DNA of 64,000 bases from Chitinophagaceae bacterium (GTDB lineage: Bacteria; Bacteroidota; Bacteroidia; Chitinophagales; Chitinophagaceae), in NCBI GenBank assembly GCA_947375185.1, contig CANCEU010000005.1, positions 1 to 64,000 of the forward strand, given 5' to 3'. Every line of letters begins with the position of its first letter. The stretch's first letter is position 1. Positions 1,736-31,870 of this stretch are shown piece after piece. Below the pieces are notes generated by a model that saw only the letters and a program-made list of their open reading frames with translations, searched no databases and had not been told where the DNA came from. The position numbers were made by a program, and so were the translations under genes.

Positions 1736-2986
1736 ATGGCAAGTATAAATTTGATTGAGGCGTTCCAAGAATTTAAAGACGCAGAAAGCATTGATCGTCC
1801 AACCATGATGAAAGTGGTGGAAGATGTTTTCAAAACTTTATTAAGAAAAAAATACGGTAGCGATGAAAATTTTGACGTTATCGTAAACGCTGAAAAAGGT
1901 GACTTGGAAATTATCCGTCGTCGTGAAATTCGTCCTGATGATGATGTAGACAATCCATTGGCTGAAGTTTCATATTCTGACGCAATCAAAATAGAGCCTG
2001 ACTTTGAGATTGGTGAGGAGTTATTAGAGGAAGTAAATATTTATGATTTTGGTCGTCGTGCAATTTTGGCTGCAAAGCAAACTTTAGCATCTCGTATCAA
2101 TGACTTAAAAAAGAATGCTTTAGTAAAAAAATATTCTGATCGTATTGGTGAAATCATCAATGCTGAAATTTATCAGGTTTGGAAAAAAGAGGTTTTGTTA
2201 TTAGATGAGGAAGGCAATGAATTAATTCTTCCTAAAACAGAACAAATTCCTCAAGACTTTTTCAAGAAAGGAGAAAATATTAGAGCGGTCATTGCGCGCG
2301 TGGATATGAAAAATAATTCACCGGTAATTATCTTGTCTAGAACAAGTCCTTTATTCTTAGCTAAATTATTAGAAATTGAAGTTCCAGAAATTTTCGATGG
2401 TTTAATCACTATCAAGAAAATTGTTCGCGAACCAGGTGAGCGTGCTAAAGTAGCTGTTGAATCATTCGATGATCGAATTGATCCAGTTGGCGCTTGTGTG
2501 GGTATGAAAGGTTCTCGTATACATGGAATTGTTCGTGAATTGAAAAACGAAAATATCGACGTAATCAACTTTACTACCAATACTCAATTATTAATTCAAC
2601 GTTCATTGACGCCAGCAAAAATCAGCTTCATGAATTTGGATAATGATCGTAAGCGTGCTGAAGTTTATTTACAAGCCGATCAAGTTTCTTTGGCGATTGG
2701 TCGTCGTGGCGTTAACATCAAATTAGCATCTGAATTAACAGGTTATGAATTAGATGTTTATCGTGAGGATGAGGAAGTGGTAGACGAATTTGATATCGAC
2801 ATGGATGAATTTACAGATGAAATTGAGCCATGGGTGATTGACGAATTTAAGCGTGTAGGTTGTGATACAGGACGAAGTGTATTGAAATTAAGCGCTGATG
2901 AATTAGAAAGAAGAACAGACTTAGAAAAAGAAACGATCGCTGAAGTGCGTCGTATCTTACAAGAAGAGTTTGACAAAGGTGAATAA
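1736..2986 (+). CDS. nusA: Transcription termination/antitermination factor NusA
   Basis: NusA N-terminal, S1 and KH region (DPVGACVGMKGSRI, LAIGRRGVNIKLA); likely start ATG at 1736 in the frame of track ORF 1718. Confidence 0.96.
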   Translation: MASINLIEAFQEFKDAESIDRPTMMKVVEDVFKTLLRKKYGSDENFDVIVNAEKGDLEIIRRREIRPDDDVDNPLAEVSYSDAIKIEPDFEIGEELLEEVNIYDFGRRAILAAKQTLASRINDLKKNALVKKYSDRIGEIINAEIYQVWKKEVLLLDEEGNELILPKTEQIPQDFFKKGENIRAVIARVDMKNNSPVIILSRTSPLFLAKLLEIEVPEIFDGLITIKKIVREPGERAKVAVESFDDRIDPVGACVGMKGSRIHGIVRELKNENIDVINFTTNTQLLIQRSLTPAKISFMNLDNDRKRAEVYLQADQVSLAIGRRGVNIKLASELTGYELDVYREDEEVVDEFDIDMDEFTDEIEPWVIDEFKRVGCDTGRSVLKLSADELERRTDLEKETIAEVRRILQEEFDKGE

Positions 2987-29659: not shown

Positions 29660-30580
29660 ATGTCTTTAGTAGTTGTAGGATCTATGGCCTTTGATGCCAT
29701 CGAAACACCCTTTGGGAAAAGTGATAAAATTATTGGTGGTGCAGCTACCTATATTGCATGGTGTGCATCTAATTTTACACCCGTTAAGCAAATTTCTGTA
29801 GTTGGAGGTGACTTTCCTCAATCCGAATTGGATGCATTAACCAATCGTGGAGTTATTTTAGAAGGCGTTCAAATTAAAAAAGACGAGAAGACCTTTTTCT
29901 GGAGCGGTAAGTATCATTTAGATATGAATACGCGTGATACTTTAGATACACAATTAAATGTGTTAGAAAATTTTGAACCTGTGGTTCCAGAAAGCTATCA
30001 AGATTGTGATATTTTAATGTTAGGGAATTTAGTGCCTGGCGTACAAAGTAGTGTTATTAAGCAAATGAAGACACGTCCTAAATTAATCGTTATGGATACG
30101 ATGAATTTTTGGATGGAAATTATGTTAGATGATTTATTACATACTATTAGTTTAGTGGATGTTTTAATGGTAAATGATAGTGAAGCACGTCAATTAAGTG
30201 GTGAGTATAGTTTAGTGAAAGCCGCTAAAAAGATTATGGCAATGGGTCCAAAATATTTAATCATTAAAAAAGGAGAGCATGGCGCTTTGTTGTTCCATGA
30301 AAATGAAGTGTTCTTTGCTCCAGCTTTACCATTGGAGGAAGTATTTGATCCAACTGGTGCTGGTGATACATTTGCTGGTGGATTTGTTGCACATTTGGCT
30401 AAGACAAAAGATTTTTCTTTTGAAAATATGAAGTCTGCAATAATCTTAGGAAGTGCAATGGCTAGCTATTGCGTTGAAAAATTTGGTACTCAAAGATTAA
30501 CGGAGATCAATATGGACGATATTAAAGGACGCGTACAATCGTTTGTTTCTTTAGTGAACTTTGATATTGAATTAGTTTAA
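29660..30580 (+). CDS. PfkB-family carbohydrate kinase
   Basis: VVVGSMAFDAIETPFG, GGAATYIAW, FDPTGAGDTFAGGFVAHLA. Confidence 0.92.
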   Translation: MSLVVVGSMAFDAIETPFGKSDKIIGGAATYIAWCASNFTPVKQISVVGGDFPQSELDALTNRGVILEGVQIKKDEKTFFWSGKYHLDMNTRDTLDTQLNVLENFEPVVPESYQDCDILMLGNLVPGVQSSVIKQMKTRPKLIVMDTMNFWMEIMLDDLLHTISLVDVLMVNDSEARQLSGEYSLVKAAKKIMAMGPKYLIIKKGEHGALLFHENEVFFAPALPLEEVFDPTGAGDTFAGGFVAHLAKTKDFSFENMKSAIILGSAMASYCVEKFGTQRLTEINMDDIKGRVQSFVSLVNFDIELV

Positions 30581-30612
30581 TTTGGAAAAATGATTGTATC
30601 CAATTAATTTTG
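30581..30612 (+). promoter_or_regulatory. Candidate promoter of the asd leader
   Basis: TTTG (30581-30584), 20-nt spacer, TAATTTTG (30605-30612). Confidence 0.6.
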
Positions 30613-30619
30613 TTCCACA

Positions 30620-30809
30620 ATGATGAATAATAAACATACAAAACAAGTTAAGAAACCACTCTAAGAGGAAGGTCTGATTGTTTGTATGCGAATAAATATA
30701 CTCAGAAGCCTTCCAAATATTGGAAGGCTTTTTCTTTTTCTAAGTCTTTTTAAAAAATAAGACTTGAAAAAGAAAACTCTGATGATTTTAAAGTCCTTGA
30801 AAGGACTTT
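30620..30809 (+). ncRNA. Structured leader RNA upstream of asd (candidate attenuator/riboregulator)
   Basis: Mini-ORF MMNNKHTKQVKKPL* (30620-30664); mutually exclusive stems; terminator; two further hairpins (30730-30776, 30790-30809). Confidence 0.6.
30706..30740 (+). terminator. Intrinsic terminator in asd leader
   Basis: AAGCCTTCCAA-ATA-TTGGAAGGCTT (11 bp) followed by TTTCTTTTTC. Confidence 0.8.
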
Positions 30810-30871
30810 GGATTTATTGTTACATCACTGAAAACAAATGAATGAATTTTTAAAAATAAAAACCAATAACC

Positions 30872-31870
30872 ATGCGTGTTGCAGTAGTAGGTGCCACAGG
30901 GCTAGTAGGCACAAAAATGTTACAAGTACTAGCTGAAAGAAATTTCCCAGTTACTGAATTAATTCCAGTTGCCTCTGCACGTTCAGTAGGCAAGGAAGTC
31001 ATTTTTAAAGGAAAAACTTATAAAGTGGTAGGCATGGAAGAGGGTATTGCTGCAAAGCCTGCAGTTGCAATATTTTCAGCAGGTGGAGGTACTTCAACTG
31101 AGTGGGCTCCGAAATTTGCTGAGGCAGGCATTCGTGTAATTGACAATTCTTCGGCATGGAGAATGGATCCAACTAAAAAATTAGTAGTGCCTGAAGTGAA
31201 TGCTGCGGTATTAACTGCAGCCGATATGATTATTGCAAATCCAAACTGTTCGACCATTCAAATGGTTGTAGCATTGCAACCATTGCATGCAAAATATAAA
31301 ATCAAGAGAGTAATTGTTAGTACTTACCAAAGTGTTACAGGTACTGGTAAGCAAGCAGTAGACCAATTAATGGCTGAAAGAGCAGGCAAGCAATTGGGTG
31401 CTGATGAAATGGCTTATAAATATCAAATTGATTTAAACGCAATACCTCAAATTGACGTTTTTTTAGAAAACGGATATACTAAAGAGGAAATGAAAATGGT
31501 TAATGAAACTTGCAAAATAATGCAAGATGAAAATATTAAAGTTACAGCAACCACAGTGCGTATTCCAGTGATGGGAGGGCACAGCGAAAGTGTGAATGTG
31601 GAGTTTGAAAATGAATTTGATTTAAAAGAATTGATTGCTGAATTAGCTACAGCTCCAGGTGTGGTAGTTCAACAGGACGATGCAGCACAGTTTTATCCTA
31701 TGCCATTATGGGCTCATGAAAAAGACGATGTTTTTGTAGGTCGTTTACGTCGTGACGAAACACAAGCAAAAACATTAAACATGTGGATTGTGAGCGATAA
31801 CTTACGCAAAGGTGCGGCTACCAACGCAGTACAAATTGCAGAATATCTTGCATCAAAAGGGATTATTTAA
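30872..31870 (+). CDS. asd: Aspartate-semialdehyde dehydrogenase
   Basis: MRVAVVGATGLVGTKMLQVL, NPNCSTIQMVVAL, PVMGGHSESVNVEF. Confidence 0.96.
   Translation: MRVAVVGATGLVGTKMLQVLAERNFPVTELIPVASARSVGKEVIFKGKTYKVVGMEEGIAAKPAVAIFSAGGGTSTEWAPKFAEAGIRVIDNSSAWRMDPTKKLVVPEVNAAVLTAADMIIANPNCSTIQMVVALQPLHAKYKIKRVIVSTYQSVTGTGKQAVDQLMAERAGKQLGADEMAYKYQIDLNAIPQIDVFLENGYTKEEMKMVNETCKIMQDENIKVTATTVRIPVMGGHSESVNVEFENEFDLKELIAELATAPGVVVQQDDAAQFYPMPLWAHEKDDVFVGRLRRDETQAKTLNMWIVSDNLRKGAATNAVQIAEYLASKGII

Follow-up and report, generated by a model that had tools for sequence, protein, structure and literature searches.

A probable ribosome-mediated transcription attenuator with lysine and threonine codons in the asd leader of Chitinophagaceae

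The window analyzed here is a 64,000-nucleotide stretch of contig CANCEU010000005.1 from a Chitinophagaceae bacterium. According to its list of open reading frames (ORFs), the intergenic region holding the leader is flanked by a pfkB-family kinase gene (29660–30580) and by asd. An initial annotation had placed in this region a promoter, a stem termed P1, an antiterminator, and a terminator with a T-run; each of these elements was recovered at its position (Table 1). Two parts had escaped it, namely a short leader ORF that holds the 5' strand of P1, and the pairing of segment 3 with the spacer between segments 3 and 4.

Table 1. Features of the asd leader in the window and of two sister leaders in the same genome
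Feature	Position	Strand	Partner, content, or evidence
Promoter, Bacteroidota-type TTTG-N20-TAATTTTG	30581–30612	+	TTTG 30581–30584, N20, TAATTTTG 30605–30612; from sequence
Leader-peptide ORF MMNNKHTKQVKKPL*, 14 codons	30620–30664	+	Lys x4, Thr x1, Met x2 including the start; coding-type substitutions
Segment 1, protector 5' strand, codons 6–9 inside the ORF	30635–30646	+	Pairs with 30678–30688; covariation; swap test z -13.4
Segment 2, GGAAGG-T-CTGA, antiterminator 5' strand	30667–30677	+	Pairs with 30702–30714; begins 3 nt past the stop codon
Segment 3	30678–30688	+	Partner is segment 1 (protector) or the 3–4 spacer
Inner antiterminator helix	30679–30685 with 30692–30698	+	Swap test z -7.2
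Segment 4, TCAG-AAG-CCTTCC	30702–30714	+	Common to antiterminator and terminator; three-way changes
Segment 5	30720–30730	+	Pairs with segment 4
Intrinsic terminator and U-run	30704–30739	+	Hairpin 30704–30732, core 30706–30730
asd, aspartate-semialdehyde dehydrogenase, regulated gene	30872–31870	+	ORF; protein homologues, sequence features, and initial annotation; leader–asd order kept in relatives
hisG leader MNLNNHIHHHHLLSKG*	G000:C16 (L271), ~2108–2270	-	Promoter box and terminator-like hairpin
pheA leader MKANSNWFYFFFYFYFNQSSRVVFVKA* (begins MKANSNWFYFFFYFYFNQSS)	G000:C66 (L272), from ~1319		Followed by a G+C-rich terminator-like hairpin

Searches of relatives revealed a conserved element at 30608–30738, with E values down to 1e-29. 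At the DNA level the region is present in most congeners, with similarity centered on ~30618–30739, and the gene order tetR-like/pfkB/element/asd is the same in relatives. Against 399 genomes of the order, a sequence-only model gave strong matches (E < 1e-8) in about 90 genomes, all from the window's own family, which was taken as Chitinophagaceae from the named relatives Sediminibacterium, Limnovirga, Niastella, and Flavihumibacter. By this search, the element is confined to Chitinophagaceae. Matches outside the family (E ~1e-4 to 4e-6) are weak, many of them spanning the terminator alone, and were judged to be chance. The sequence 3' of the terminator is variable; the intergenic region measures 291 nt here versus 174–233 nt in most close relatives, and the window carries an extra stretch 3' of the terminator that most of them lack. 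Between the terminator and asd (30731–30871), this stretch forms extra hairpins, CTTTTTCTAAGTCTT/AAGACTTGAAAAAG and AAAGTCCTTGAAAGGACTTT, which are perhaps a small palindromic repeat and are likewise missing from most close relatives. Congeneric genomes contain scattered sites that match parts of 30729–30796 at 74–83%. In two close relatives (L031 and L034, with asd 93% and 84% identical), the whole leader is absent and ~30 nt separate pfkB from asd, a natural deletion.

Of 131 asd leaders, 121 have the motif TAnnTTYG upstream of the start codon, usually 6–9 nt from the ATG, as compared to about 8 hits in shuffled upstream sequences. Given this position and the known Bacteroidota promoter consensus TAnnTTTG/TTTG (PMC7366714), we infer that transcription starts within a few nucleotides of the leader ATG, yielding a nearly leaderless mRNA. 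Such a start would be unusual, judging from B. thetaiotaomicron, in which 5' UTRs shorter than 10 nt account for only ~3.7% (PMC7366714).

The leader ORF is the best-conserved stretch of the element. In relatives the peptide reads M..(M/N)KHTK(R/Q)(T/I)KK, then P(L/R)* or a longer tail; the 131 leaders are mostly 13–23 codons long and end variously in TAA, TGA, or TAG. A mini-hairpin around the stop codon (CUC-UAA-GAG, CGC-UAA-GCG) is visible in the genus alignment. When 73 distinct 24-nt cores are compared, most codons that differ by a single base in the ORF frame encode the same amino acid (N/S 0.44); relative to expectation, N/S is 0.10 in frame 0 versus 2.8 and 2.1 in the other two frames. 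This pattern points to strong coding constraint in the relatives and to a short ORF 5' of the structural gene that is predicted to be translated. The leaders abound in Lys and Thr codons, with additional Met/Ile. Over the 131 leaders, Lys and Thr codons sum to 856, against 540 ± 14 in dinucleotide shuffles; the Lys/Thr content therefore exceeds the A/T bias, a compositional preference of A/U-rich codons for Lys, Asn, and Ile that is corrected for here, not abolished. The enzyme encoded by asd stands at the branch point of lysine, threonine, and methionine synthesis, and the putative regulatory codons match these end products.

The amino-acid conservation of the core, KHTKR.KK, is strong enough to bring to mind a TnaC/SpeFL-like arrest sensor, in which a nascent KHTK[RQ]xKK peptide would stall the ribosome on free lysine or another small molecule. 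However, the same codon set occurs in other orders in several relatives (L033 MINFTNTTIKTIKGF, L037 MNITMTKKSIKKHIS, L050 MKMICKNKKHNMKRF), and the spacing between the core and the stop codon takes two different values. Furthermore, the conservation of His and Arg/Gln, which also stand out in the leader, coincides with the pairing of segment 1 and is probably due to it. We thus regard peptide arrest as very unlikely.

The covariance analysis of asd leaders proposed by the initial annotation revealed both conservation and covariation among relatives. In an alignment of 100 rows of distinct relatives, built without a structure model, 17 of the 22 pairs in helices 1:3 and 4:5 show two-sided changes, as do 8 of the 10 in helix 2:4. 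In both cases none of 500 shuffles reached the covariation score, and slid controls fell far below that of the real helices. Exchanging partner segments between species weakened 1:3, 2:4, and 4:5, with 0 of 5000 permutations as good, a result to be taken as supportive rather than as a probability, as the permutation keeps no phylogeny. In four relatives (L040, L042, L174, and L186), the core of segment 4 is changed together with matching changes in both segments 2 and 5, such that 2:4 and 4:5 are kept. These three-way changes are direct evidence that segment 4 has two partners. The predicted antiterminator thus shares a strand with the terminator, and the mutual exclusion of the two, already claimed from the window sequence, is borne out by the relatives. 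The fold of 30618–30871, a span including two downstream hairpins outside the conserved element, was far more stable than those of dinucleotide shuffles (z -9.0). Terminator-like sites outnumber expectation (2 versus 0.2), and the predicted intrinsic terminator lies between leader and gene; a terminator follows the leader in 135 of 135 loci scanned, where a few of the ORF picks are wrong.

From the promoter to the terminator, the leader forms a self-contained unit of ~118 nt (30618–30735), and transcripts ending there would accumulate. It might accordingly be an independent trans-acting small RNA, or the 3' end and terminator of pfkB, with asd expressed from its own promoter; a trans-acting leader peptide has a precedent in peTrpL of S. 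meliloti (PMC7298713). Yet the neighbor retained across loci is the downstream asd (92 of 110), not pfkB (20 of 110), and several relatives, with total intergenic regions of 174–205 nt, leave little room for a second promoter between the terminator and asd. Moreover, the alternative antiterminator covaries, for which a plain terminator has no need. A separate small RNA or pfkB terminator is therefore highly improbable.

Segment 3 pairs with the spacer preceding segment 4 and extends the antiterminator; in 127 of 128 folded regions the result is a simple nested hairpin, and thus no pseudoknot is required. The initial annotation had read the pairing of the P1 loop with the downstream CCTTCC as a possible H-type pseudoknot, and had left open an attenuator or a riboswitch of an unrecognized class. 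The pseudoknot is not supported, given the nested hairpin and the coding nature of the P1 5' strand. A metabolite-binding riboswitch with such an aptamer, for lysine, threonine, SAM, or the like, would fit a conserved structured leader with a terminator upstream of asd; 1:3 and 2:4 make the pseudoknot geometrically possible, and P1 covaries. Nevertheless, the substitution pattern marks the most conserved stretch as protein-coding, with swapped stop codons, no conserved unpaired aptamer core is evident, and the related leaders of hisG and pheA share the layout but have other codons. A scan of the whole window with Rfam at gathering thresholds matched no family, whether riboswitch or unrelated known RNA (the His, Thr, Trp, and Phe leaders, Bacteroid-trp, RF01732, Lysine, SAM, and T-box included). 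Sub-threshold matches at permissive settings, to Phe_leader (on the wrong strand), TD-1, and ncr1575, were judged to be chance terminator similarity. We hold a riboswitch to be exceedingly improbable, and the attenuator, for which no ligand is needed, is the part of the earlier proposal that is upheld. Its layout is that of the textbook, with a protector (1:3), an antiterminator (2:4, extended by 3), and a terminator (4:5).

The geometry of the leaders is in line with control by ribosome position. The ribosome footprint was taken as 12 nt (PMC4833913), and in none of the 128 leaders does the core of segment 2 extend past the stop codon by more than this length, the stop lying just before or just after this core. 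All leaders also contain four or more Lys/Thr codons at a distance of over 12 nt on the 5' side of the core. As judged from this geometry, a ribosome that has reached the stop codon would mask segment 2 in all 128 leaders, whereas one at the regulatory codons would not. In folding calculations, the antiterminator is the minimum-free-energy structure (-17.4) before segment 5 is made, and the full leader adopts the protector plus terminator (-30.2); placing a ribosome at the stop leaves the terminator as the sole structure. As the terminator is the stabler end state and the antiterminator the stablest until segment 5, the strand that is free when segment 4 emerges should decide the outcome.

Taken together, the asd 5' leader is very probably a ribosome-mediated transcription attenuator read by charged tRNA-Lys and tRNA-Thr, and probably tRNA-Met. 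The anatomy enables us to propose a putative model, including the start site, the stalling, the read-through, and the direction of the response. Initially, transcription would begin a few nucleotides before the leader ATG, and a ribosome would translate the 14-codon ORF. When charged tRNA-Lys and tRNA-Thr (probably also tRNA-Met) are plentiful, the ribosome would reach the stop at 30664 and cover segment 2, upon which segment 4 would pair with segment 5 and RNA polymerase would terminate at ~30735. A stall on the Lys/Thr codons would instead open the 1:3 protector and leave segment 2 free; the antiterminator made of segment 2, segment 3 with the spacer, and segment 4 would then form ahead of the synthesis of segment 5, and transcription would run on into asd. 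If translation fails, 1:3 plus 4:5 would be the most stable fold, giving basal termination. The model assumes transcription–translation coupling in Bacteroidota, and would imply that in Chitinophagaceae the two processes are coupled closely enough for attenuation.

This model is reminiscent of the enterobacterial trp, his, thr, and ilv attenuators (Trp_leader, His_leader, Thr_leader), which share the short ORF with pathway codons, the protector/antiterminator/terminator alternatives, and the control by ribosome position. The asd leader differs from them in the gene it precedes, Lys codons, nearly leaderless ORF, Bacteroidota promoter, and short segments. Multivalent attenuator leaders are known, that of thr containing Thr and Ile codons. 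By every testable feature, the predicted asd leader belongs to the classical ribosome-mediated attenuators, and it has no Rfam family. The Bacteroid-trp motif (RF01692) of the same phylum, which we take to be a Trp leader-peptide attenuator, has no match here and differs in gene and amino acid. It has been described as a likely cis-regulatory RNA (PMC2864571). In Flavobacterium psychrophilum, strong clues for leader-peptide attenuation were reported upstream of amino-acid operons, with the candidates left unspecified and neither asd nor Lys leaders named in the main text (PMC9723704). RNA elements for asd or the lysine pathway exist as the asd motif RF01732 of Lactobacillales (PMC2864571) and the lysine (L-box) riboswitch, both of which belong to other phyla and have no match here. 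In Actinobacteria, the LEU element upstream of leuA combines a leader peptide with a conserved RNA element, as here, but it is a pseudoknot (PMC1262725), whereas a nested antiterminator suffices for the asd leader. In the 2005 survey, lysine was riboswitch-controlled and His, Thr, and Phe attenuator-controlled (PMC1262725), and the main text of a 2010 survey of premature terminators mentions neither asd nor Bacteroidota (PMC2965389). A lysine-codon leader was not found in the accessible literature, and some Bacteroidota attenuators may have been predicted earlier. The mechanism is thus known and ordinary; the gene, the lineage, and the lysine specificity appear new. Attenuation of this type is scarcely documented in Bacteroidota, where little is known of amino-acid regulation, and the leader offers a testable RNA control for the branch point of the aspartate family. 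Seed alignments are supplied for the missing Rfam families.

Thirteen genomes carry two copies of the element, one at asd and the other at dapA, the gene for the first step of the lysine branch. A typical pair reads MQKMMKHTKRTKKHSIQWEG (asd) and MQLIKKHTKQVKKHSMYGEG (dapA). The paired leaders have equal numbers of Lys codons (4.7 versus 4.7), whereas Met plus Thr codons are fewer at dapA (1.8 versus 3.5 at asd of the same genome; Wilcoxon p 0.005, for 13 genomes that represent only about four genera and are not independent). In one of these genomes (G162) the ORF picked at asd is wrong; with the correct ORF the score rises, so the result is not weakened. In the window's own genome, dapA has no such leader, nor does dapA of most family members. 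Such asd/dapA pairs amount to a natural codon-swap experiment within one genome.

The sequence-only model also found related elements with His runs at hisG, Phe/Tyr codons at pheA, Ile/Val/Leu codons at ilvE, and Lys codons at an aminotransferase-lysC locus. In the window's genome, the leaders of hisG and pheA are, as predicted from their codons and hairpins, a histidine attenuator of the asd-leader plan and a phenylalanine attenuator, respectively. On balance, we lean toward the asd leader being a branch-point integrator, in which one nearly leaderless mini-ORF would read Lys, Thr, and Met together, a shortage of any of them opening asd. In some Chitinophagaceae a duplicate of this element would have arisen at dapA and, through exchange of its codons, have come to respond only to lysine. 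This would be, to our knowledge, the first lysine-specific leader-peptide attenuator. It would form part of a wider attenuator set for his, phe, ilv, and lysC, used by these Bacteroidota in place of known riboswitches. Elsewhere, two loci upstream of pheA (L160 and L216) contain two tandem candidate Phe/Tyr leader-peptide attenuators, MITQTTFGFFGFYYFWYQK followed by MANYSNYFFYYFSYFFYAKKQGTRLQ, and a locus upstream of ilvE (L217) has an Ile/Val/Leu-rich leader of 38 codons (MWVNKDNNAINHIVAQLNWAITLVVIVVVIITRQPIGG) with a terminator.
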